A stretch of 43,446 nucleotides of DNA from Alcanivoracaceae bacterium (lineage in GTDB: Bacteria; Pseudomonadota; Gammaproteobacteria; Xanthomonadales; Marinicellaceae). The stretch is from NCBI GenBank assembly GCA_016763695.1, contig JAESTH010000164.1:1-43446 (forward strand). The letters are read 5' to 3'. Numbering within the stretch: position 1 is the first letter of the stretch; the number at the start of each line of letters is the position of its first letter. Made by a program: the position numbers and the translations under genes. The notes under the pieces are model-generated. The model made no database searches and was not told where the DNA came from. It saw only the letters and a program-made list of their open reading frames with translations. Shown one piece after another: positions 2 to 34,438 of the stretch.

Positions 2-1507
2 AAATGCAAAACTAAAAATTTTACTGCCACACCATTAATACCCGGCTATAAGGGACAGTCAGTTGCCAAGGATGTTTATTCGCCAGCACAGTTGGACTTT
101 CTGGTTGGGCATTGCATTGATGCTAAAGAACAAGATGTGCAATTGGCTTTAAGTAATGCACAATCAGTATTCAATCAATGGAATGAAACCCCAGTTGCTA
201 AACGAGCTATGCTCATAAATAAAGTGGCTGATTTAATGGAAAAAAATCAAACCACTCTTTTGTATTTACTGCGCCATGAAGCAGGTAAGAGTTTAGCTGA
301 CAGCATTTCTGAAATAAAAGAAGCAATAGATTTTTGTCGGTATTATGCCCATCATGCCAACGCTAAAATGGCAGATGCGATAAAAATGCCTGGTCCCACA
401 GGTGAAAGTAACTTTCTGACCTTGCAGGGCAAAGGTGTTTTTGTCTGTATTAGTCCATGGAATTTCCCAGTGGCGATATATGTTGGACAAATTGTGGCGG
501 CATTGGTCACAGGTAATTGCGTTATCGCAAAGCCTGCGGAACAAACCTCGATTATTGGTTATTATCTGGCTTGTTTAATTCACCAGGCAGGTGTTCCGCA
601 AACTGTATTTCAATTTGTACCAGGCTTAGGCAGGGAAATTGGCAATGTGCTATGCCAATCCAATAAAACCACCGGTGTGGTCTTTACGGGCTCCACCCAA
701 ACCGCTCAAATCATCAATAAAAATTTAGCCAACCGAGAAAATGTCGCTATAGCCACTTTGGTGGCAGAAACTGGTGGGCAAAATTGCATGATAGCGGATT
801 CATCAGCCTTGCCAGAACAATTGGTCAAAGATGTGATCGCATCGGCCTTTGTCAGTGCCGGCCAAAGGTGTTCGGCATTGCGTATATTATATATTCAGGA
901 AGATATTGCTGATAATGTCCTGAAAATGCTCTCAGGTGCCATGGATGAAATGAACATCAGTCACCCACAAAACTATTCATCCGATGTGGGTCCCTTGATT
1001 GATGGTGTCTCATTGAATAAGCTCAATGCCCATGTTAAATACATGCAGGACAAAGGTAAGCTGATTAAAGCGTTAAATGTTCCAGCAGAATTAAATGGCC
1101 ATTATTTCGCACCACATGCCTTTGAGATTGATTCTATTGAGTTGTTGTCACAAGAGGTCTTCGGCCCATTTTTGCATGTAATTAGATATAAAGCCAAACA
1201 ATTGGATGCTGTAATAGATGCAATTAATAACACAGGTTATGGCCTTACCTTCGGTATCCATTCCCGTATTAATAACAGCATAGAATATGTAGTTTCAAGA
1301 ATCCGTGTTGGTAACTGTTATATCAATCGCAGCACCATTGGTGCAGTGGTAGGCGTACACCCTTTTGGTGGCATGGGCTTATCTGGTACAGGTCCAAAAG
1401 CAGGTGGCCCCAATTATCTGGAAAGCTTTATCACCGAAAAAACCATCACCAACAATATCGCTGCAGTTGGTGGCAATGCCGATTTATTGGAGATTAGTGA
1501 GGATTGA
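2..1507 (+). CDS. putA: Proline dehydrogenase/L-glutamate gamma-semialdehyde dehydrogenase (PutA), C-terminal P5C dehydrogenase part; 5' end outside window
   Basis: Frame is open to the window edge upstream of the listed TTG start (KCKTKNFTATPLIPGYKGQSVAKDVYSPAQ...). Motifs VCISPWNFPVAIYVGQIVAALVTGNCVIAKPAEQT, VAETGGQNCMIADSSALPEQ and SAGQRCSALR are typical of the PutA aldehyde dehydrogenase domain. Confidence 0.9.
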   Translation, partial: KCKTKNFTATPLIPGYKGQSVAKDVYSPAQLDFLVGHCIDAKEQDVQLALSNAQSVFNQWNETPVAKRAMLINKVADLMEKNQTTLLYLLRHEAGKSLADSISEIKEAIDFCRYYAHHANAKMADAIKMPGPTGESNFLTLQGKGVFVCISPWNFPVAIYVGQIVAALVTGNCVIAKPAEQTSIIGYYLACLIHQAGVPQTVFQFVPGLGREIGNVLCQSNKTTGVVFTGSTQTAQIINKNLANRENVAIATLVAETGGQNCMIADSSALPEQLVKDVIASAFVSAGQRCSALRILYIQEDIADNVLKMLSGAMDEMNISHPQNYSSDVGPLIDGVSLNKLNAHVKYMQDKGKLIKALNVPAELNGHYFAPHAFEIDSIELLSQEVFGPFLHVIRYKAKQLDAVIDAINNTGYGLTFGIHSRINNSIEYVVSRIRVGNCYINRSTIGAVVGVHPFGGMGLSGTGPKAGGPNYLESFITEKTITNNIAAVGGNADLLEISED

Positions 1508-1535
1508 TTAAAATCCTTTGCATTGGCAGTACGGT

Positions 1536-1559
1536 AGAGACAAGACATGTCTTGTCTCT
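1536..1559. repeat. Perfect 24-bp palindrome (REP-like; likely bidirectional terminator)
   Basis: AGAGACAAGACATGTCTTGTCTCT is its own reverse complement, is followed by a T-run, and lies between convergent genes. Related copies at 13194 and 34405. Confidence 0.8.
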
Positions 1560-1577
1560 TTTTATTCTTTATTCTCT

Positions 1578-4286
1578 TTATCCTTTTTTCCCATTAAGAT
1601 CACCCAACATATCTTCAGCATAGGGCATCCCAAGCACCTGTAACGTATGGCTCATATGTATTCTGCGATCGTTAAAGTCATCATAAAGATAATACAGCCC
1701 TGTTATATTTTCATAATATGCCTTACCCATGGTATGAATACTGATGCTTTTTTTTAAGTGCTTTCTGGCGGCTTTCTTATACCAAAATTTCTCCTTGTAC
1801 CCATCCTCTAAACTCCCAACATCTTTAATAACTTTATGGGTTAAATAGGCACAAAGCCCTGATTCCATATGAGTAAAATGAAAGGGTGAGTCATATAAAC
1901 TATTATAATAAAATAAAGTTGATGATAAGTCTTTCAGGCGCGTGCTTCGTTTCAATCTGAGGGAATCAGAAGATTCTATTTCAAAATCTTTCTTAACCAT
2001 ATAAGTACTATAGATTAAAACAGACAATCCTCGTAACCTGTTTAAAATGGGAAAACGCATAAAGAGTAAATGATTCTCCAATTTTTTTTGTATATATTTT
2101 TTCATCTCAAAGGTGTTAACTTGGAGAATATTCGTTATTTTTTTATGTACTGTTTTCTGAACACTTTCTTTGCTAATTAATGTTTTTAAGCTTTGATCAA
2201 AGAATTTTTTGATCCCTTCTTCCAGTTCTTTTTTTGGTAAATTATTAGTGAGATTATCAAATTCAGCTTGTATACTTGAATAAAAGCTTCCATTTGAGGA
2301 ACGGCAAATTAAGTCTGTAATTTTCATTTCAAATAATTCAGATATTTTCTTATCATACATCACTTTAAAATGGCCATTTAACCATTTATTAAGTGCTTTA
2401 TTAATTTCTCCATTTTTGAGATTTTTCTGATGTTCTCCTTCATTTACTAGGCGAATTATTTCATTGAAACTTTCATCTAATGTGAGTATTTCACCCATCT
2501 CAAATTTAACAGAGATCTTTTCTTTTAAATTTCCCCCAATTAGTTCTTCAAGTCTCTTTATTAATAATAAAAAATCTTTTATTTGTGTTTGGTTTTCATT
2601 TGTCAGTTTCTTGCTCGCATTATTTTTTTGCAAAACATCCTCAAGTACTTCATGCAGCTTTTTATCAAGTAAAACCTTGACTAATAAATCCTCGACTAAA
2701 TTTCCAACCTTTTTAACAACGATTGACTCTAAACATTCTTGACTGAAAACTTTATTGACTTTATCTTCTAGATTGTCGTCTTTTTCAAGCATCGATAAAT
2801 TCTTCAAAATTTCATTAAAATACTTTTGCTTGACTTCTTTATTTAATTCAATTAAGGAAAAGTCTTCTTTCCTATGGGTTCCCCATTTGAGTAAAAGCTT
2901 GCTTATACGAGTACATTGTTTGTAAGCTTTTTTTTCCAAACAGAGTAAATAAAGTGAGTAAGCTAATGTAATAAACTCAGGATAAAGAACTTTTTTGTGT
3001 GATTCATTAACATGTGGAGCTAAAACATGTGGAGCCAATCTGCCGAGTTTATTATCAAAGACTACTGCTTCAGCACTTTTTAAACAGGAGATTGAAAATT
3101 TCAATAAATAGTCAATATAGGCATTAAATATGGGCTCTTCAGATTTGGGTTTGCGATCCTCACTGGCACTGGTTTCTTTAGAGACAGTTATCCACCATAT
3201 TGATGTAGAAATTAAAGTTGCCAATTCTAAATATTCTTTTGAGGCAGATTCATAGTAACCTCCATCTTCAAGATATCGTATTCCCGCCCATGATAAATGT
3301 ATGCCTATAAAAAGCCTTTGTGCGTCAACATTATTGTTGTATTCCTCCAGTACATCTGGATAGCTTATATTTTCATTACCATCTACATCAAATGGCTCTG
3401 ACCTATATCTATTATCATTAAGCTTCCATTTTCCTAACCAATCACTCAAAACTCCACAATCAACACACCAATTGCCTTTAATTCTAAATATTAAATTATC
3501 ATTGCCTTTATTGCATTCTATTGATGACAAACCCATCCATTCATCAATAATTTTATAAAAATCTTGAGGATTATTTATTATTTTACCCTCACTAGCACTG
3601 CAACAAGTGTCATCACTTGCATTGGTATTTTTGATATTAACACTATCTTCAATGATATCTAATTTAAATATATTCATTTTAGCTAATGTTGAGTCACCAA
3701 TATCCATCAAGTTTGAAGAAAGGGCCAATATAAGATAATCGGGTTTATTCAAAATAGAAAGGCATTCAGTATCTTCTCTAGTAGAATTAAGTTTACGGTC
3801 AGAAGTGTTAATCCGATGATAAAGAAACCTTCTTAGTTCATGTAATGCCACCGAATAGTGGTAAGTAGCACGTAATAAGTAACCATGTATAAGTTCCCGT
3901 TTACCATTTTCATGTTTTACAGTTTCTTGGTTGCCTTTAAAAAAAGCCAGATCTCCTGTTTTATTATGTAATTGAGAAGCAATAAGTGAAAAATTTGAAT
4001 GGCCGTACGTAGAGGGGGATATTGTTTTACAATCATGCATATCTTTAATAAATGGCAGGATTGTTCGTAACTTACCAATGCCTTTTTCTAATATAACCAA
4101 ACTCGCATCCAAACTGCCAGACATTTTTTCTATCAGCCAGGCTTCAGCAAATAAGGGCTGATAAAGTATTTTGAAATATTTAAGCACGTTATGGCGTTTA
4201 ATTTTATCACTCTGATTTTCAATCGATCGCTCTGAAAAATATTGGAGTATTTTCATTGAGATATGTTTATTTTCCATTTTTTTCAC
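1578..4286 (-). CDS. Large helical protein of unknown function, partner of the membrane NTPase
   Basis: 902-aa ORF overlapping the upstream NTPase gene by 20 nt in another frame; starts GTG (4286) or ATG (4277). No family recognised; helical/TPR-like segments. Confidence 0.85.
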   Translation of the reverse strand: MKKMENKHISMKILQYFSERSIENQSDKIKRHNVLKYFKILYQPLFAEAWLIEKMSGSLDASLVILEKGIGKLRTILPFIKDMHDCKTISPSTYGHSNFSLIASQLHNKTGDLAFFKGNQETVKHENGKRELIHGYLLRATYHYSVALHELRRFLYHRINTSDRKLNSTREDTECLSILNKPDYLILALSSNLMDIGDSTLAKMNIFKLDIIEDSVNIKNTNASDDTCCSASEGKIINNPQDFYKIIDEWMGLSSIECNKGNDNLIFRIKGNWCVDCGVLSDWLGKWKLNDNRYRSEPFDVDGNENISYPDVLEEYNNNVDAQRLFIGIHLSWAGIRYLEDGGYYESASKEYLELATLISTSIWWITVSKETSASEDRKPKSEEPIFNAYIDYLLKFSISCLKSAEAVVFDNKLGRLAPHVLAPHVNESHKKVLYPEFITLAYSLYLLCLEKKAYKQCTRISKLLLKWGTHRKEDFSLIELNKEVKQKYFNEILKNLSMLEKDDNLEDKVNKVFSQECLESIVVKKVGNLVEDLLVKVLLDKKLHEVLEDVLQKNNASKKLTNENQTQIKDFLLLIKRLEELIGGNLKEKISVKFEMGEILTLDESFNEIIRLVNEGEHQKNLKNGEINKALNKWLNGHFKVMYDKKISELFEMKITDLICRSSNGSFYSSIQAEFDNLTNNLPKKELEEGIKKFFDQSLKTLISKESVQKTVHKKITNILQVNTFEMKKYIQKKLENHLLFMRFPILNRLRGLSVLIYSTYMVKKDFEIESSDSLRLKRSTRLKDLSSTLFYYNSLYDSPFHFTHMESGLCAYLTHKVIKDVGSLEDGYKEKFWYKKAARKHLKKSISIHTMGKAYYENITGLYYLYDDFNDRRIHMSHTLQVLGMPYAEDMLGDLNGKKG

Positions 4287-7200
4287 TGGGGGAATTAATC
4301 TTATTAATTCCTAAAAAAGTCCTTATAAGTTTGTTTGCTAAGCTTTTAGCATCGCGATAATGCGAAAGGGCTACTAAAGGCCGGTTATCTTTTTCATATG
4401 TCTGACCTAACATCAACATCAATGTTAATCTTTCATTGCCCCAATTAATATTGGCCTTTAAACCATTAGAACCATCTGAAAGTATTTCTCCGATTGGGAA
4501 ATTACCCTGTTGAGAATGACGTATATTATAATTTTTATCTAATATATCAATGGCCTTGATATATTCACTTCTGGCCGCATCAAACTCTTTATCCAGATCG
4601 TATAATTCGCCTAATCCAGTAATTAAATCCAGGTTGTTTGAATCATATTCCTTTAACTTCCTTTTATAAATTTTCTTCAAATCACCAGATTCATCTAAAG
4701 TAAAATTATAGGCCGCACTGTCATTGTCTGATACTTTTGATAAATAGGCTAATTCCTTACTTAAATCGCTTCTAAATTTGAATACAAATATACCATTGAG
4801 AACCCTATGTAAGTAAAGCCCTGAAAACTGCTCTACAATGGATTCAAAAACCCTTTGCAGTTCTGGTAAGCGGTGAATATGGGCTAATTCATCAAGGCGA
4901 TACAAGTGACGCCAGGAGAAAGCATGGCCATGAAATTTCATGATAAAGTCCGATAAATAAAATATCGCCGTTGCCATTTTATCATCTGCCTGAGCAATAT
5001 AATTCCCTACTTTAAGATTTATATTATAAAATACATCTGCTAAAAACTGAATACGGATAATTTCATTGTCTCCAAATTCCAGAACATCTAAACACTCAAT
5101 GTTGTTTTTTTTGTCCCTTACTATTGCAGGGTTAATGAACTCCAAAAACAGTCGTTTTAACTGTTTTGGGTTGCCTTGAGATCTATATGTAAGAAATTGA
5201 ATGAAATTTAAAATAAACTTTTCCTGGTCGACTATTGACATCTCATCAAATTGGTTGAATTTAATATAAACAGAATCACTTTCTGTTATGTCTTTATGCC
5301 CTTGAAAAAGTTTTAGGTTGCTATAAAGAGCGCGAAATTCAGAATTTTCTTTTCCTTCATTCATTAGTGAAAAAGTTTCTGCTAACTGGTTTTGATCTTT
5401 GCTAGATAATATGTTGCTATTAATTAATTTATATTGAAGCTCAAAAGAGCTTTTTCCAGATAGATCCTTGCTATAAGGACGGGCTCTTTCATACTGCAAA
5501 TTAACATATTCAATAATATTGGTTTTAATATCAGTTAAATCTCCCTCATTATCTGTCAATAAAGAGGGGATAAACAGTTCAATGTCAAAGATGCTGGTTA
5601 GAAAGGCTTCTCTGGAGTTTGAATCTGCCAACCATTGATCATGTAGATCTCTACCTGCCACAAAGATAAATTTAGCTTTTGCGGTGGTGATAAAATTCTT
5701 CATATCTGATAACAAAATGTTTATTTGATGTGTTCTAGCCGCCTCATTTTCGGTATAACTTTTTTGTTTATCATGAATCTCCACATGCTCAACCATACCA
5801 CCATGATTATGCAATTTATCCAGCTCATCAAAAACAAAAATAATTGAAGGGGCTGCCAGCGTAAATATTTTTCCGTGTGATAAAAACCAGCCTTTTTGAT
5901 CTTTACTGATATCTTCAATCAGTTTGATCATTCTGATTTCTGCAATTCTTGGGTTAATGGGTTCACTTTGAGTAGATTTTTCATTATTCCATAAGACTGA
6001 ACCAGCAATATTATGTAAAGAACCGATGACTCCTTTTTGCGTGCGAGTCACTCGTGAAGAAAAATCTCTTAACAGGCGGTCTATTTTTGCAATATTCCTT
6101 CTTTGATAACTTATAGGTTTAAATAAAATTGCTAAATACAGAATAAAGAATATTAATAGCATCCCAATCAGGTCAATTAAAGTATATTTAAAATAAATCC
6201 ATCCATCTTTTGGTTCTCCTACAGTATTCAATAAATATGTAGTAAGTAATATTGTTTCATCTATTTGTCCTTCAAGAATAGGCCTCTTTAGAAAGTCATT
6301 CAGCTTGTATTCTGAACTTGAAGAGTATGATTTCTGATATTTGGTAGAAACAGAGCTATTTTCGTTATTTGTCACCTGCTTATTTATAACCATCTCATAA
6401 TCAACCTGATTATCAAAACTATTAAATGTACTCGATAATGGCTTCCATAATATTAAACTTAAAAACATCAATATTATTGGAATAATTTTATTATAGGCAT
6501 AATTACCGCCTAAAAATATACTACTGTATTTGCTTTTGAGTTCGATTAACATGGCATGAATTATATTTGAATGATTTAAATCCTTAAAACCCAGATTAAT
6601 GGGAATATAAATTGAAGGAACCTTATGGTGTAATATAATCCAGGGGAATGACCATTGTGATAAAAAAATGGCATATCGCCTTTGTTTTTTTGCAAAATCT
6701 GAGTTGGTGCTTTTTGCTAATATTTTTTTAATTATGCTATCTTCTATGAAGTAACCAAAAGCCATATACGCTACTGATAAAAAGATAAGTGCCTTACTAA
6801 TGCAACTCAATAATAATGGTTGTTGTATTAACAAAAATAATAATAGAATATTCAAGATCACAATTAAGATCACACAAATAATAAAACTAAAATGAGCTGG
6901 TTTTTTAGAAACTAATGTGATTATCCATAACATTAGATGATTAATTATTGCAAAGAAGAGCCCCGCACTTAGAGTGTCTATAATTAATGATTGTTTCTCT
7001 TCTTCATTAGCCAAAAAATATCCTCTTATAATAATTATTAATACAGGAACCAGCAGGAATGTATATGACTTTATTTTTAGCCAATTTACAAGCTTAAATA
7101 TTTGCATGGAAACTTTGTCATCGCGATCCTTTATACTACTATGATATTGTGATTTAATACTTTTCAGAGCTTTACGAAGCATCCAACCATACAAAAATAT

Positions 7201-7635
7201 AACCAGTGTAGGAAATATTCCAAAAAGCCCAAATAAAATTTTTGTAAAGCTATTATCTACCTCTATTCCCTTTATAGATATTAGAACTAAACTAGAATCA
7301 AAGATGAAAGCTAGAAAAAAAGAAATGACCGAAATAAAAAGATAATCGCCAATTTTTGAAGTATTGTTGTTTTGAATTATTCTGGGATTGATTTCTAAAT
7401 TATGCTCTGCAACGCAATGATTAACAAAACTGGTTTTTCCACTGCCTCTTGTGCCAGTGACTAACAAGCAACCGTTTTTCTTGGGTTCTAGTAACCACCT
7501 AATAAAGAACTTCCTTTGTTTCTTGCGACCAACCATGGTTTCGTTGTATGGTGATTTTAACAAGCCGCCCTGAATAATGCGACCGAATGGAATAACTAAC
7601 TTTTGATTGACAAAATCATTGAAAATACTTTTCAT
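4267..7635 (-). CDS. Multi-pass membrane P-loop NTPase, KAP-like topology
   Basis: 1122-aa ORF. Walker A LLVTGTRGSGKTSF near the N-terminus, many hydrophobic segments (about aa 95-540), Walker B-like SIIFVFDELDKL, sensor-like AKFIFVAGRD, then SQGNPKQLKRLF, resembling the KAP/STAND lid region. C-terminus contains TPR-like helices. Confidence 0.8.
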   Translation of the reverse strand: MKSIFNDFVNQKLVIPFGRIIQGGLLKSPYNETMVGRKKQRKFFIRWLLEPKKNGCLLVTGTRGSGKTSFVNHCVAEHNLEINPRIIQNNNTSKIGDYLFISVISFFLAFIFDSSLVLISIKGIEVDNSFTKILFGLFGIFPTLVIFLYGWMLRKALKSIKSQYHSSIKDRDDKVSMQIFKLVNWLKIKSYTFLLVPVLIIIIRGYFLANEEEKQSLIIDTLSAGLFFAIINHLMLWIITLVSKKPAHFSFIICVILIVILNILLLFLLIQQPLLLSCISKALIFLSVAYMAFGYFIEDSIIKKILAKSTNSDFAKKQRRYAIFLSQWSFPWIILHHKVPSIYIPINLGFKDLNHSNIIHAMLIELKSKYSSIFLGGNYAYNKIIPIILMFLSLILWKPLSSTFNSFDNQVDYEMVINKQVTNNENSSVSTKYQKSYSSSSEYKLNDFLKRPILEGQIDETILLTTYLLNTVGEPKDGWIYFKYTLIDLIGMLLIFFILYLAILFKPISYQRRNIAKIDRLLRDFSSRVTRTQKGVIGSLHNIAGSVLWNNEKSTQSEPINPRIAEIRMIKLIEDISKDQKGWFLSHGKIFTLAAPSIIFVFDELDKLHNHGGMVEHVEIHDKQKSYTENEAARTHQINILLSDMKNFITTAKAKFIFVAGRDLHDQWLADSNSREAFLTSIFDIELFIPSLLTDNEGDLTDIKTNIIEYVNLQYERARPYSKDLSGKSSFELQYKLINSNILSSKDQNQLAETFSLMNEGKENSEFRALYSNLKLFQGHKDITESDSVYIKFNQFDEMSIVDQEKFILNFIQFLTYRSQGNPKQLKRLFLEFINPAIVRDKKNNIECLDVLEFGDNEIIRIQFLADVFYNINLKVGNYIAQADDKMATAIFYLSDFIMKFHGHAFSWRHLYRLDELAHIHRLPELQRVFESIVEQFSGLYLHRVLNGIFVFKFRSDLSKELAYLSKVSDNDSAAYNFTLDESGDLKKIYKRKLKEYDSNNLDLITGLGELYDLDKEFDAARSEYIKAIDILDKNYNIRHSQQGNFPIGEILSDGSNGLKANINWGNERLTLMLMLGQTYEKDNRPLVALSHYRDAKSLANKLIRTFLGINKINSPSEKNGK

Positions 7636-7772
7636 GTCCTTCTCCCCCTTCCAATAATACAGTTTAATAAATCGTATAAAAGACAGAGGATAAAATCCTT
7701 TTAGTGGTTTATTTAACTGCGAACAGAAATAAATATACTATTTAGTATAGCGTACAGATAAGAAATTGTAAA

Positions 7773-7800
7773 CAGCCTTATTCAATATTGAATGAGCCTG
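7773..7800. promoter_or_regulatory. 28-bp near-perfect palindrome upstream of the NTPase operon
   Basis: CAGCCTTATTCAATATTGAATGAGCCTG; 12 of 14 positions per arm are symmetric, with a perfect 14-bp core ATTCAATATTGAAT. Confidence 0.5.
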
Positions 7801-7886
7801 AAATAAAAGCCACTTCTAACATGAAAGGAGTCTAAAAATTGCATAAAGAATAAATGTAGTTCATTTTTTGTCAAATGAGAACGATC

Positions 7887-8048
7887 ATGAAATTTGAAAA
7901 ATTAAAATCAATCGAACAACTTCTACAATTTATTATTGGAACAAAAAAAGTAATATTCCAAATCAAGTAAAGTAAAACGGAGAAGTATGAATGGATTACT
8001 AAAGAATTAGTGAGATTTAAGTGTTCATGTCTTTGTAAAAAAGAAAAA
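7887..8048 (+). pseudogene. Remnant N-terminus of a DDE integrase/transposase-like protein, with internal stop
   Basis: Reads MKFEKLKSIEQLLQFIIGTKKVIFQIK*SKTEKYEWITKELVRFKCSCLCKKEKG, resembling the N-terminus of a common 'integrase catalytic domain' transposase (IEQL..FL.GT..V.F...SK.ERY.WI...LVRF.Y..L.K.DKG), recalled from memory. Runs directly into putA-derived sequence. Confidence 0.5.
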
Positions 8049-8648
8049 GGTGGGCAGAATTGCATGATAGCAGATTCATTAGCCTTGCCAGAGCAATTGG
8101 TTAAAGATGTTCGGCAGTACGTTACTGTTTATTCAGGAATACATTGCTGATAATGTCCTGAACATGCTCAATACTCATGTTAAATACATGCAGGACAAAG
8201 GTAAACTGATTAAGGCGTTAAATGTTCCAGCAGAATTAAATGGCCATTATTTCGTATCACATGCCTTTGAACTTGACTCTAGTAAATTATTAGCACAAGA
8301 AGTCTTCGGCACATTTTGCACGTAATCAGATATAAGGCCAAACATTTGGATGCTGTAATAGATGCGATTAATAATACAGGCTATGGCCTAACCTTCAGCA
8401 TTCATTCCCGTATTAATAGCACCATAGAATATGTTGTTTCAAGAAATCGTGTTGGTCACTGTTATATTATCGCAGCACCATTAGCAGTGGTTGACGTACA
8501 TCCCTTTGGAGGCCTAGGTTTATCTGGTACAGGCCCCAATGCTGGTGGCTCCAATTACCTGGAAAGTTTTATCACCGAAAAAACTATCACTAACAACATT
8601 GTAGCTGTCGGCAGTAATGCCGATTTATTAGAGAGTATCGATGGTTGA
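8049..8648 (+). pseudogene. Degenerate partial duplicate of the putA 3' end
   Basis: Aligns by eye to 773-1507 with a 37-bp deletion, a 93-bp deletion and small indels (loss of one T at the GGCACATTTT tract; further small indels near 8465). Explains track ORFs 8107-8325 and 8316-8648. Confidence 0.9.
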
Positions 8649-8653
8649 TTTGA

Positions 8654-8678
8654 AAAACTATTGCTTAACAATAGTTTT
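8654..8678 (+). terminator. Hairpin downstream of the putA fragment
   Basis: AAAACTATTG-cttaa-CAATAGTTTT, 10-bp perfect stem, immediately after the fragment's stop codon. Confidence 0.45.
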
Positions 8679-8830
8679 AATGTAGGTGAAAATGTGAAGA
8701 TAAGCTATGTTTTTTAAGGCTTATTTCATATTGGACAAGGCTAAATATTGTGAATATGTAGATAATGCATTACTATCTTTAGATAAATTGCATCTACATA
8801 ATACTCATATATTAATACAATAATTAATTA

Positions 8831-8870
8831 TAAATTAATATTCTGCGCAACTAATATGAATATTAATTTA
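8831..8870. promoter_or_regulatory. 13-bp perfect inverted repeat upstream of the STAND gene
   Basis: TAAATTAATATTC (8831-8843), 14-nt spacer, GAATATTAATTTA (8858-8870); 34 bp before the ATG at 8905. Confidence 0.45.
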
Positions 8871-8904
8871 AAAATGATTTCCACACTAAAAAAGGTTAAA
8901 TATA

Positions 8905-11900
8905 ATGTCAAGAAATGTAAAGGAAGGCTTGATTAGAGAAGGCCGCAATGTACTTAAAGTTTTTCTTTCATATCCACAATCTGGACGAAAAATGGCGATG
9001 AAAGCCATCGAAGTATGTCGTCAAGAAATTAACCATGGTAAGTGGCGTAAAGATTTTGTACTGGATGTTTGTATGTGGGACAAAGATGAACGTATGGTTG
9101 TGCTGGATGCTTTAATAGAACCCAATGATGTGATATATGCTCAAAATTTCCATCCCAGTGAAGCCGATTTTTTTGTTGTGTTTTTAACCAATAGAATTGG
9201 CGATGGAACCATAAAAGAGATCCATGATCGAAAGAATAAGCTACACCAAAGTATTAAAGATTGTACCTATATTTTTCTAAAAGATGAGCCGCCAAAGAAA
9301 ATCAAAGGTGCGACCCCTCGACAAGTAGCTGATTATGAAGAGTTATCTGAATGGTTTGCCCGCCCATTTATTCGTGAAGATTCTAAGAAAAAAGTATTCT
9401 CGAATAGTAAAATTGAACCTGTATTGATAGAAGATAATGAAAATTTTTTATCAGTATTTAAAAGTGTTTTAACAGAGTACTTGTTAGAAAAATATGATGA
9501 AATCATTGGTGAAAAAGCTGTTGTTAATTTTAATCCCTATCCTGGTCTTAAGCCTTTAAGTGAAGAACACGCCCATTGTATATTTGGAAGGAAAAAAGAC
9601 ATAGATAGAATTAATAAAAAACGGAAACAAGGGTGCCGATTTTTCATGATTTATGGTTCTTCTGGTGTTGGTAAATCATCCTTAATACTTGCAGGCGTGC
9701 TAGGGAGGTTGCCAGGAACTTGCAAGAAGTATACCTTCAATCCTCAAGGTGAACCATCGAATCAATTGGCTGAGATACTGGAAGGGTTGTTACCAGATAC
9801 TACAACTCTAGCAATTATTAATAAACCCAAAAAGGCACTTAAAGGTTTAAAAAAAGCCTTAGATGGAAATGATGGTTTGGTTATTTTTATTGATCAATTT
9901 GAGCGTATTTATTCTGTCAGTAGTGAGGAAATGACAAGTTTTACTCGCATACTTATGGCATTAGAACCAATTAAAAAATGTACAGTCATTATTGCACAGC
10001 GAGCTGATCAGATGCAAGAGTGGTCCAGTCGTCCTGATTTAAATAATTCAGATATATGGCATCTCCAACCCATCAGTCATGTACGCAGTACATATCTAAA
10101 AGATGTGATAACCAAACCAGCGATTAGGGCGAATGTGCCAAAACCAGAAGACCAACTAGTCTACCAGCTAATTGAGGACTTCGATGATAGGGAAAATTCA
10201 ACACCATTATTGGCACTGACACTACATGAATTATATGTACAAAGTGGAAATGGTGAACGTTCCATGACACTCACTGATTATGTATCTATGGGAGGTTTGA
10301 AAGGGCTGATTGATAAACGAACCATAAAATTAATTGACGAGTTAAATGACCTTGGGTTTGGTAAGCGACATCTGCATAAGTTGTTCTCACTTGTTGTAGA
10401 TGTGAATGAATATGGTAAACCAATTTCAAAAGTGGTCAAGAGAAAGAAGATAGAAAAGCTTTTCAATACAAAAACTGTTGAGATGTTAATTAAATCATTT
10501 TATCTTCGTACGGAGTCAGATGAAGGTGAACAAGGATCTACCTTAACGCTAGCACATGAAGTCTATTTTGATGAATGGCCATTATTGAGGTCTTGGGTAG
10601 ATGACAATAGAGTAGAACTCAGAGAAATCAGAGATTTAGAGCGAGAAGCCTTGAGGTGGGATGAACATGGAAGATCTCCCGCCTACTTGTTGCCAGCAGA
10701 AAGAGTCGAAACAGTTTCAGATTTTATTAAAAATTCAAATCATCGTATTAAGCCAAAATATAGCAAAGTAGTAAAAAGTTTCATCAATGTATCCACTATG
10801 AAAATGAAACAGCAAATGTTAAAAGAAAATATTTTGAAAGGTGTAATCAAGAAAATTGATGAGTTACTCAAGGAAGGAATAAAAGTGGAAAAACCCCTTT
10901 TTGATGATTCTTTCGCAGTATTTTATGATGTATTTTGGGGCGAAAAGGAGACTATTGTCACAAAACAACGCAACGGAATGAAGTCGCAAGATCATAGTGC
11001 AATTAATGATAAATCAGTGTATCAAATGACTACTAATGGCCTTACGCTTCTCCATTTGGCAGCAATCTCTGGCAGATTGGATAAAATAAAATATTTATTT
11101 TCTAGCTATGGTATGGATATAAACAGCAAAAGTATTTCACATGCCACTCCATTATCTTGTGCAAGCTATTGTGGCAATGTTGATGTGGTTAAGTTGCTTC
11201 TCCATTTGGATGCAAATATAGAGATAAAAAATAGTGAAAATGGTTTAAAGGCAATAGATTGGGCGGTAATGAATGGTCATTCAGAGATAGTAGGGCTACT
11301 TATGAGTAAAGTCAAAGGACAGAACGAGCATATGCCGATAGAGTTGTCTCATGGCCTCATTGTTTCAGCAGCTGCAGGAAGTCATGTAACTCAGTTAATC
11401 AAATATCTCAGTGAAGTAGAAAATGATAAAAATCGCATAAAAATAATCCAAGAAGCTTTATATTATTCATCCAATGCATCGAGTGAATGCGTTAAAATTT
11501 TAATAGAAGCGGGGGCTAACCCTCTTTTCGTGTACAAGAATGATCACATTTTCTTTCATTGGCTGGCAGCTGAAGGAAAATATAAAATAATAAAATTAAT
11601 ACTAAACACGATTAAAGGGTTTGATGTTAATAAGCAAAATTCGAAAAAAATTACTCCTTTAAACATGGTGCTTAACTATGCAAGTGTGAATGTGGAACCT
11701 TGTATAAAAATTTTATTAAAATATGGTGCAGACCCTTCAATCACTGATGATAATGACAGCAATGTGTTGCATATCATTGCAAGAAGAGAGCAGGATTTTC
11801 TGCTTAGATACTTTATTAAAGATAAGAGATTAAACTTAGAGAAGAGAGATAAGTCACGACTAACTGTTTTAGCGATAGTTGCCATAAATGGCAATATGAA

Positions 11901-13074
11901 ATTATTTAAAGCATTACTAAATGCTGGAGCCAACCCAGAATCAACTGACGACGAAGGTAATACTGTGCTTATGATGGTTATTAGAAGTAGTCATGAAAAT
12001 TTATTACAATTATTGCTGGAAAAGAGTAACAGCTTAAATGTGCAAGCAACCAATAGAATGGGAATGAATGCACTTATGTTTGCATCATTTCAAGGCGACT
12101 ATCCAGCGATTAAAATACTACTTAAATTTTTCAAGGGTTCGGCTATTAATGCTGTTGATAAGTCAGGTATGACCGCTTTGAACTATGCAAGTGAGAAGGG
12201 GCATAGTTTAGTGTTAGATTTATTAATTGATAATGGTGCTATTATACCTCTTTGGAGTCAAATATCGACATCAAAAGACAAAGAAACTAAATCACTTACG
12301 AGCCTTAAAAATAAAGCTTTGGGTTTATTAATTACCAAGGATTTAATGACATCACCTTCAGATCTCTGGAATATCCCTCCTCTTATTGGTAAGCCTGGTC
12401 AGTGGAAAACAATTAATAAGAATACGGCTGTTAAATTGCTAGGCCACCTTGCTAATACGCTCAATGATGATGGGTATTGGATAAATACCAGTTCGGTAAT
12501 ACGTGTCCGGACATTATCATTAGAATGCTACCCTGATATGTTGTTGTGTGAAGCAGAAGTGAAATTATTCGATGGTGAAAATGGTCTGATTACATTTATG
12601 TATATGGATAAAAAGTGCATATTGCTTAATGGTACATCGGATAACTTTCATAAGCTTAACGAAAATAAAAAAATTGATCTTACTGATCCGAAATTTGTGG
12701 TTGAATATTTGACTCTTTTCTGTGCTGGTGTTCAAAGTGATACAAATTGCCCTTTTACTATTGTTTCAAATGAAATAGATATTGTTTTTATTAATAAAGT
12801 TAATAAGAAAGCAGCGTATTGGCTAAAACATGGAATTAAACCTCATAGCAAGCCAGAATTTGATGAAAAAGAAGAAGCGTGGAAAATATCCGCAACAATA
12901 ATATATTTAGGGACGATATTTGAAGCTGATTTTAGTTTAACAAAGGTGGGGATAGTTGAAATGATTGATGACCAACCTAGCGATACACTTATTGATCTTC
13001 CAGTTAAAACCTGGGGCTTTTGGGGGAATATTCGTAGAGATTTGACGCAGCTATTACAGTCAGAAAAATTATAA
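8905..13074 (+). CDS. STAND NTPase with DUF4062/TIR-like N-terminus, ankyrin repeats and unassigned C-terminal region; putative defence/signal-transduction protein
   Basis: 1389 aa. N-term LKVFLSYPQSGRKMAMKA...SEADFFVVFLTNRIGDGTIKEI; nSTAND1-type NPYPGLKPLSEEHAHCIFGRKKDI, Walker A FFMIYGSSGVGKSSL, Walker B VIFIDQFERI, EALRWDEHGRSPAYLLPAERVE; ankyrin units such as NGLTLLHLAAISGRLDKIKYL and ATPLSCASYCGNVDVVKLLLHLDANIE. Confidence 0.85.
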   Translation: MSRNVKEGLIREGRNVLKVFLSYPQSGRKMAMKAIEVCRQEINHGKWRKDFVLDVCMWDKDERMVVLDALIEPNDVIYAQNFHPSEADFFVVFLTNRIGDGTIKEIHDRKNKLHQSIKDCTYIFLKDEPPKKIKGATPRQVADYEELSEWFARPFIREDSKKKVFSNSKIEPVLIEDNENFLSVFKSVLTEYLLEKYDEIIGEKAVVNFNPYPGLKPLSEEHAHCIFGRKKDIDRINKKRKQGCRFFMIYGSSGVGKSSLILAGVLGRLPGTCKKYTFNPQGEPSNQLAEILEGLLPDTTTLAIINKPKKALKGLKKALDGNDGLVIFIDQFERIYSVSSEEMTSFTRILMALEPIKKCTVIIAQRADQMQEWSSRPDLNNSDIWHLQPISHVRSTYLKDVITKPAIRANVPKPEDQLVYQLIEDFDDRENSTPLLALTLHELYVQSGNGERSMTLTDYVSMGGLKGLIDKRTIKLIDELNDLGFGKRHLHKLFSLVVDVNEYGKPISKVVKRKKIEKLFNTKTVEMLIKSFYLRTESDEGEQGSTLTLAHEVYFDEWPLLRSWVDDNRVELREIRDLEREALRWDEHGRSPAYLLPAERVETVSDFIKNSNHRIKPKYSKVVKSFINVSTMKMKQQMLKENILKGVIKKIDELLKEGIKVEKPLFDDSFAVFYDVFWGEKETIVTKQRNGMKSQDHSAINDKSVYQMTTNGLTLLHLAAISGRLDKIKYLFSSYGMDINSKSISHATPLSCASYCGNVDVVKLLLHLDANIEIKNSENGLKAIDWAVMNGHSEIVGLLMSKVKGQNEHMPIELSHGLIVSAAAGSHVTQLIKYLSEVENDKNRIKIIQEALYYSSNASSECVKILIEAGANPLFVYKNDHIFFHWLAAEGKYKIIKLILNTIKGFDVNKQNSKKITPLNMVLNYASVNVEPCIKILLKYGADPSITDDNDSNVLHIIARREQDFLLRYFIKDKRLNLEKRDKSRLTVLAIVAINGNMKLFKALLNAGANPESTDDEGNTVLMMVIRSSHENLLQLLLEKSNSLNVQATNRMGMNALMFASFQGDYPAIKILLKFFKGSAINAVDKSGMTALNYASEKGHSLVLDLLIDNGAIIPLWSQISTSKDKETKSLTSLKNKALGLLITKDLMTSPSDLWNIPPLIGKPGQWKTINKNTAVKLLGHLANTLNDDGYWINTSSVIRVRTLSLECYPDMLLCEAEVKLFDGENGLITFMYMDKKCILLNGTSDNFHKLNENKKIDLTDPKFVVEYLTLFCAGVQSDTNCPFTIVSNEIDIVFINKVNKKAAYWLKHGIKPHSKPEFDEKEEAWKISATIIYLGTIFEADFSLTKVGIVEMIDDQPSDTLIDLPVKTWGFWGNIRRDLTQLLQSEKL

Positions 13075-13193
13075 TAATTAACCTTGGTTTCAACAACGAA
13101 GTGCAACACATTAATTAACCAGCTAATTGACTAAATACTAGTATAAATAAGTTTTTATCACAAGAATTATATGGAGATATTTCACGTCACTGT

Positions 13194-13217
13194 GGAGGCA
13201 AGATATGTCCTGTCTCT
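13194..13217. repeat. Degenerate copy of the REP-like palindrome
   Basis: GGAGGCAAGATATGTCCTGTCTCT resembles the perfect copy at 1536-1559; also between convergent genes. Confidence 0.55.
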
Positions 13218-13234
13218 GGTATGGTTGGCGATTA

Positions 13235-14551
13235 TCAAAAAACATAACCCATAGAGAATAACCAAATACTACCATCACCTCTCAGGATAGTTTCTAGCCC
13301 CGCATCTTCAGTGCTTTCATAATTTAAACTCAAAATCCAGGAATTTGTGGGCTGTAACCTTAGACCGATAGTATATCTCTTTTCCCAATTATCGGCTTGA
13401 GATATATCAAAGAAATTTTCTATATTAACTTGATCATATTGTGTGACTAGGCTCAGTTTGGCGTGAGAAAAATCTTCACTCAACCAATTGTCTGAGAATA
13501 AATTTTCTAATGAGAAAATGCTTCTGATGTAATATCCATCCATAACAGCAGAACCGTTGATTTCTCTATCGATATTCATTTTGGTGTATTCGGCGACTAA
13601 CTCCAGCCAGTTCCACTGGTAATCAATATCAAAATTATATCCAGTAATATCTTTTCTGCCCTCATCATCCCAAGCGCCATTATATAAGCTAAATCCTAAT
13701 GTTAGGCCTGAAGTATTCTGTAAGCTTATTTTGGCAGCTATGGCCTTATTGTTGTTATTGTCGACGCCAAAGCCCTGTCTGGTTGCTCGCAGTCCAGTTG
13801 TAGACAAACCGCTGTCAAGACCTGCGATAACATAAGCTTGATAGTCGGCAAGCCAGTTTTCGGAAACATTGAATCGCCCATTGACGCCGAAACCATTGTC
13901 AGTCCAGTCAGAAGGTGCCAGTGCGAAGCTGGTATATGGTTTGGATATGACATCACGTAAAGGAGCAAAGTGGTCTCTTTCAATATTGCCAAAAGGCACC
14001 AATAAAATGCCGCCTCTAAAATTCATCCATGAGTTGATTTTGAAATCAGTATAGGCTTGCTCCAGCAATACTTCTCCGCCGCGAGAACCACCTACTGTTG
14101 CGGCTCTTTCAAACTCTAATTCAGCAAAATAACTGAGTCTCTTGTGTGGTTGTCCGCTTAAAATCAGTTCAAAAGATTGTCCATCGATGATGGTATTTTC
14201 GTTGGTGGCTTTGCCTGCGGTAATTGTGCCGTAGATGCCTAGGTTAGGCTGATTTTCCTGTACTTTGGAAATACGAGTTACTTCGCTACTGTTTTCTTCA
14301 ACCTGTTCCTGAACATCAGTTAAGACATCGTGCAATTGCACTGCATAAGCCTCTAAGCTGGCAATTCTTTGCGAGTTTGTAGTCGATACATCATTTCCAA
14401 TATCTTGTTTTAACTGGTTGATTTGTCGTTGTAAATTGGCAAAATTATCTTCCAGTTCCTGTATTTTGTTTTGTAAGCTTTTTTGAGCTGAACTTGTGCT
14501 GACGAATAATAAAAGCGTAAGTAGAAAGTGTGTTGAATAGATTCTTCTCAT
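13235..14551 (-). CDS. Outer-membrane porin (OprO/OprP-like) with N-terminal coiled coil
   Basis: Signal peptide, coiled coil KSLQNKIQELEDNFANLQRQINQLKQDI, beta-barrel-like repeats, terminal phenylalanine (SMGYVF). Confidence 0.7.
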   Translation of the reverse strand: MRRIYSTHFLLTLLLFVSTSSAQKSLQNKIQELEDNFANLQRQINQLKQDIGNDVSTTNSQRIASLEAYAVQLHDVLTDVQEQVEENSSEVTRISKVQENQPNLGIYGTITAGKATNENTIIDGQSFELILSGQPHKRLSYFAELEFERAATVGGSRGGEVLLEQAYTDFKINSWMNFRGGILLVPFGNIERDHFAPLRDVISKPYTSFALAPSDWTDNGFGVNGRFNVSENWLADYQAYVIAGLDSGLSTTGLRATRQGFGVDNNNNKAIAAKISLQNTSGLTLGFSLYNGAWDDEGRKDITGYNFDIDYQWNWLELVAEYTKMNIDREINGSAVMDGYYIRSIFSLENLFSDNWLSEDFSHAKLSLVTQYDQVNIENFFDISQADNWEKRYTIGLRLQPTNSWILSLNYESTEDAGLETILRGDGSIWLFSMGYVF

Positions 14552-34314: not shown

Positions 34315-34404
34315 ATATTTTTCCTATTGATTTAAAACTATAATAAAGCAAAGAAGGGTAGATATAAATGATTTTTTATTGTTTATTATTTTAAAACACA
34401 CACC

Positions 34405-34432
34405 GTAGAGACAAGGCATGCCTTGTCTCTAC
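34405..34432. repeat. Perfect 28-bp palindrome (REP-like)
   Basis: GTAGAGACAAGGCATGCCTTGTCTCTAC is its own reverse complement; same family as 1536-1559. Confidence 0.85.
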
Positions 34433-34438
34433 CCCAAA

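Follow-up and report, generated by a model that had tools for sequence, protein, structure and literature searches.

The two overlapping open reading frames (ORFs) at positions 1578-7635 of the window (the whole stretch of 43,446 nucleotides analyzed here, which is the complete contig of a draft genome) are best explained as the halves of one KAP-like P-loop NTPase of ~2000 aa. On this explanation, to which we assign a probability of roughly 55%, the protein has a multi-helix membrane block and a TPR-like arm ending in DDFND, is patchily distributed as single-gene cargo and, by inference, would serve as an immune-type switch. The first part of this explanation is carried by the fusion of both halves in relatives, by the protein family to which they belong, by its predicted membrane anatomy and by its mobility, whereas a membrane-anchored switch of immune (KAP/STAND-like) type is suggested by analogy. 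The features of the two ORFs are as follows.

4267-7635, minus strand: N-terminal ORF, 1122 aa, ATG start; KAP-like P-loop NTPase interrupted by two membrane inserts, followed by the first TPRs
7429-7455, minus strand: Walker A, GTRGSGKTS, residues 61-69 of the 1122-aa ORF
6715-7353, minus strand: membrane block 1 (residues 95-307), made up of six TM helices that follow the Walker A helix and precede the INLG strand (hydropathy and AlphaFold)
6058-6501, minus strand: membrane block 2, a pair of TM helices at residues about 384-402 and 486-504 (hydropathy and AlphaFold)
5812-5841, minus strand: Walker B, (I)FVFDELDKL, residues 599-608 of the 1122-aa ORF
5164-5175, minus strand: GNPK motif, residues 821-824, counterpart of KAP NPRxIKR in the profile alignment
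4269-4313, minus strand: junction linker, open in both frames, with a C5 run (4292-4288) and an A7 run (4283-4277)
1578-4286, minus strand: C-terminal ORF, 902 aa, GTG start; helical TPR-like arm with the family signature at its end
2088-2942, minus strand: extra helical stretch of ~285 aa, residues 449-733 of the 902-aa ORF; low-confidence fold, nearly absent from the same-genus relative
1656-1694, minus strand: C-terminal family signature YYLYDDFNDRRIH, residues 865-877 of the 902-aa ORF

Several features read from the DNA in an earlier note were recovered. Walker A lies near the N-terminus of the 1122-aa ORF and Walker B much later (residues 61-69 and 600-608), and the TPR-like C-terminus corresponds to residues 980-1108, which are helical in a TPR-like manner and are matched weakly by single TPR models. 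The AlphaFold model of this protein (pLDDT 71.7, pTM 0.73) consists of a mixed alpha/beta core interrupted by helices and then TPR-like helical pairs. The 902-aa protein, which had been described as helical and overlapping, indeed shares 20 bp with the first ORF and is predicted to be almost all-helical, with moderate to low confidence (pLDDT 64.8); no hydrophobic segments were found in it. Its reading frame is far beyond chance, with 903 open codons at 31% GC compared with at most 157 in 500 shuffles. Neither ORF had a Pfam, PADLOC or NCBIfam match at cut-off or with a meaningful E-value, and a DUF445 match of the 902-aa protein (E 0.058) was dismissed. When both models were searched against the PDB with Foldseek, no solved structure was found at E <= 0.001, the matches being weak and of TPR or helical type.

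The proposal of a two-gene system with a dedicated partner did not hold, as the two parts form one polypeptide in nearly all relatives. They occupy a single 1810-aa ORF in a same-genus genome and a single 1641-aa ORF in a same-family genome. The 1122-aa ORF aligns to about residues 2-1187 of the 1810-aa protein, and the 902-aa ORF aligns, in order, to residues 1203-1613 and 1647-1809. Among the matches listed, nearly all relatives are single genes of 1300-2500 aa. Within the taxonomic family, relatives of the second ORF occur only inside larger ORFs that also carry the first part, with the exception of the window and one short relic. The junction falls in a linker at which the frames of the two window ORFs are one base apart. 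The split in the window may reflect a sequencing or assembly error, a recent frameshift or slippage, and may mean that this copy is inactive.

Two other readings of the junction have to be weighed. We consider it quite unlikely that this is a true two-gene system, in which a membrane NTPase and a dedicated helical partner are made by stop-start coupled translation and assemble into a complex. The 20-bp overlap would suit such a system, and split forms can be real: in a KSB1 genome the gene is split at nearly the same position with GAGG, a plausible ribosome-binding site, ahead of the ATG, so a working split form is possible. However, no Shine-Dalgarno sequence precedes the GTG start of the 902-aa ORF, the one-base difference in frame spans homopolymer runs, and the single-gene relatives include the two closest ones. 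A decaying pseudogene, that is, a window copy that has become nonfunctional through loss of frame, irrespective of the role of the family, is considerably easier to defend, but we still place it clearly below an even chance. The frame break itself speaks for it, as does a 40-aa relic of the C-terminal signature (L027:317-436, 53% identical) from a second copy on contig 53 of the window's own genome, which indicates that such genes decay in this genome. On the other hand, neither half is interrupted anywhere else (the second runs for 903 open codons) and the invariant motifs are intact, so any break would be very recent, and a sequencing or assembly error is equally possible.

When the single window protein was used to scan genome contigs, no match was obtained, and a profile search was therefore needed. 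With a profile built from seven members, at least 51 relatives were retrieved. Among the matches listed, these come from Gammaproteobacteria, Rhodobacteraceae, Magnetococcales, Myxococcota, Nitrospirota, Nitrospinota, Bacteroidota, KSB1 and others, and have GyRGxGKTS and FVFDELDK in common. A C-terminal YxxDDFNDxxxH signature is found across phyla in 32 of the 46 long relatives listed. The window has all of these (GyRGxGKTS, FVFDELDK and DDFND), spread over both ORFs. In the 47 relatives compared among the matches listed, the G, G, G and K of Walker A and D603, E604, D606 and K607 of Walker B are invariant; so is G821 of the GNPK motif, and K824 is nearly so. Signature residues L867, D869, D870 and D873 are invariant in 26 of the listed matches. 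Pfam assigned generic P-loop models to the members (AAA_16 in 38/38 and KAP_NTPase in 15/38 of those listed), NCBIfam gave weak P-loop matches and nothing else, and no fitting model for the family was found in Pfam, NCBIfam or PADLOC. The window protein had no direct similarity to the plasmids, phages and E. coli genomes searched, and no paper describing this giant KAP-like NTPase family was found in the open-licence literature. A distant 555-aa relative lacking TM segments (L012:7092-10401) adjoins a Ser/Thr kinase whose end may be FHA-like, and a KSB1 member (L077) ends in kinase-like sequence; these two are possibly a signaling branch of the family.

Hydropathy analysis placed eight TM segments between Walker A and Walker B of the window protein (starting at residues 101, 130, 191, 224, 252, 274, 384 and 486). 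The AlphaFold model shows the same arrangement: six long helices lie at residues 95-307 and two more at 379-423 and 486-505. Thus, the earlier estimate of 7-9 segments was right in number, but the insert is not one piece: it consists of two blocks, of six and two helices, parted by the conserved INLG strand. Because both counts are even, the NTPase parts on either side could all lie in the cytosol. Across the members listed, 0 to 11 TM segments separate the Walker motifs. The expanded membrane insert that had been suggested for the window characterizes one fully supported clade of the tree, whose 10 members (the window, its two family relatives, Algicola, Plesiocystis of the Myxococcota, a Magnetococcales genome and four Rhodobacteraceae-type genomes) each have 7-11 TM segments. 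Outside this clade, L054 is the sole member among the matches listed to reach eight. The extra helices of the clade lie directly behind the Walker A helix, and the second TM pair of its members occupies the same place as the pair in short relatives.

Membrane segments inside the NTPase are a trait of the KAP family, according to the title of Aravind 2004 as cited in PMC11846954, and the eight segments between Walker A and Walker B give the window protein this trait. We gathered ten KAP proteins from related genomes (PADLOC matches QatA, PifA or PDC-S20) and aligned their profile with that of the family. In this pairwise comparison, which is not a database search, hhalign gave 94% and E 1.3e-7, in line with the earlier suggestion of a divergent KAP-like NTPase. 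The family and the KAP NTPases (PF07693; PifA, QatA) are colinear over Walker A, Walker B, the strand after Walker B and an NPR-type motif, in which NPRxIKR of the KAPs corresponds to GNPKxLKRL. Against the Pfam KAP_NTPase model (PF07693), the window protein gave no match at E <= 1 and did not reach the curated cut-off; the best of the 15/38 matching members listed had E 7.8e-6, and L046 scored 16.7 bits against a cut-off of 20. The marks of the ten KAPs sampled, Walker A GxWGxGK[ST] and Walker B [DE][LI]DR, are absent from the family, which instead has GyRGxGKTS and DE[LIM]DK and so lacks both the Walker A tryptophan and the Walker B DR. In addition, the distance from Walker A to Walker B is 157-1007 residues among the family members listed compared with roughly 130-175 in the KAPs sampled, and, unlike KAP NTPases, the family has a very long TPR-like tail. 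The family is thus taken to work in the manner of KAP NTPases and is probably related to them by descent; as it lacks their sequence marks, it is not filed as KAP.

The system that comes closest in concept is Tmn (PMC11846954), a two-TM member of the KAP NTPases that stops phages including T2 and P1, although how it does so is unknown. Like the family, Tmn is a single-protein KAP-type NTPase with transmembrane segments (PMC11846954); compared by description, it has two of these, against 7-11 in the window clade, whose proteins also carry a giant helical tail. PADLOC returned no match named Tmn on the 38 members listed, although its library may lack a Tmn model. STAND NTPases (NACHT, nSTAND1, Avs-type) resemble the family in that an NTPase is followed by a superhelical repeat arm. 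Unlike them, the family has a membrane block inside the NTPase, a DELDK Walker B and no N-terminal effector domain. Weak nSTAND1 and NACHT matches were present in many of the members listed (mostly 1e-3 to 1e-4 at best), the AAA_16 and KAP models outscored the STAND models, and the cut-offs of the NACHT, NB-ARC and nSTAND models were not reached, the only match of the window protein being a weak one to nSTAND3 (0.03).

The split gene lies in an AT-rich island whose parts are listed below.

1508-13234, no strand: inserted AT-rich island, ~11.7 kb, about 30-36% GC; flanking sequence mostly 36-42%
2-1507, plus strand: putA, 3' half with the aldehyde dehydrogenase domain; left island edge, colinear with intact putA of same-genus genomes
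8042-8650, plus strand: decayed second putA 3' end inside the island; 85% identical to 766-1509, with deletions
8905-13074, plus strand: second cargo gene, nSTAND1 and ankyrin-repeat protein, 1389 aa (Pfam nSTAND1 5.7e-62, Ank_2 9.6e-67)

The earlier view that the gene is carried as cargo was borne out by empty sites at two places. In two same-genus genomes, putA is followed by a homologue of 13235-14551 at or near the position of the island, with two small genes in between in one of them. The same-genus copy of the gene is located elsewhere and stands alone between a nuoF-like gene and fdhD, which are divergent neighbors 48-65 bp apart in five other genomes of the genus. This copy is inserted after AATTATACAGGATTA, and nothing convincing was found around it in the way of terminal or target-site repeats. 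The same-family copy occupies a third site; the gene is present in 3 of the 33 genomes of the taxonomic family, at three different sites. No integrase was recognized in the island of the window. The putA direct repeats flank the split gene, the decayed copy lying 6.5 kb from the intact one, which hints at a recombination-driven gain. The first 212 residues of the nSTAND1-ankyrin protein, to which Pfam assigned no family at E <= 0.001, may form an effector domain. It should also be noted that a palindromic sequence, AGAGACAAG(A/G)CATG(T/C)CTTGTCTCT, occurs at window positions 1536-1559 and 34402-34433 and is probably a short dispersed repeat or a terminator.

In the neighborhood survey, no neighbor gene is conserved among the loci listed, and most of the 109 neighboring proteins scanned, from at least 51 loci, are metabolic or housekeeping. 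Defense-type neighbors were seen at about three of the loci listed, a raw count with no background rate. They comprise an AbiE pair (identified by sequence) beside L069, a Schlafen-type helicase, probably at L074, and a methyltransferase cluster at L044, the placements at L069 and L074 being our own reading. At one locus (L018:11689-14217), a gene for a patatin-like phospholipase with hydrophobic segments lies 50 bp upstream of the same-family homologue; it was rejected as a partner, since it adjoins the gene in this genome and at no other locus listed. Several members from Bacteroidota and Nitrospirota (L037, L046, L048, L052, L058 and L071) have small membrane or coiled-coil genes at a distance of up to about 30 bp; these were likewise rejected, as they belong to no known family and form no common cluster.

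Since there is no constant partner, sensing and effect are suggested to reside within one protein, and the effector should be built in because no separate effector gene or neighbor is conserved. In the mechanism that we consider the likeliest, judged from the architecture and from KAP precedents, the helical arm would act as a sensor whose ligand is probably part of an invader. The NTPase would then be altered by exchange or hydrolysis of its nucleotide, and the linked membrane helices, as the effector within the same protein, would disturb the inner membrane. The sensor and effector assignments are proposals, given that both structure models have weak regions and that Foldseek found no structure at the threshold used.

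An anti-phage role is plausible by analogy, favored by the KAP precedents and the patchy distribution, whereas the predominance of metabolic and housekeeping neighbors and the lack of a fitting PADLOC model count against it. The same two facts would fit an accessory membrane ATPase outside defense, for example a stress sensor or a remodeler of membrane proteins, spread by chance transfer, and TPRs are generic binding modules. We regard such an ATPase as a serious contender but on balance doubtful, because patchy presence in close relatives and precise gain of a single gene suit conflict genes better, and because the nearest kin, PifA, QatA and Tmn, are anti-phage. In its boldest form, the immune-type reading would define a family of giant membrane immune receptors, widespread but unnamed, that act as single proteins, join a TPR-like sensor, a KAP-like switch and an effector block of up to 11 helices in one polypeptide and travel as single-gene cargo outside defense islands; we hold this tentatively, at somewhat less than an even chance.

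Two features stand out: the lack of a model for the family in the libraries searched and the clean single-gene insertion. If the immune reading is true, the family would be a class of receptors that searches of defense islands would miss, since the gene moves by itself and inserts next to housekeeping genes. The steps from 0-2 to 11 inserted helices on the same NTPase core provide a natural series on the role of a membrane block inside a P-loop NTPase, a question that is also open for Tmn. Even without a defense role, a cross-phylum family whose listed members reach 2500 aa, and for which Pfam, NCBIfam and PADLOC offer no model, merits a name.
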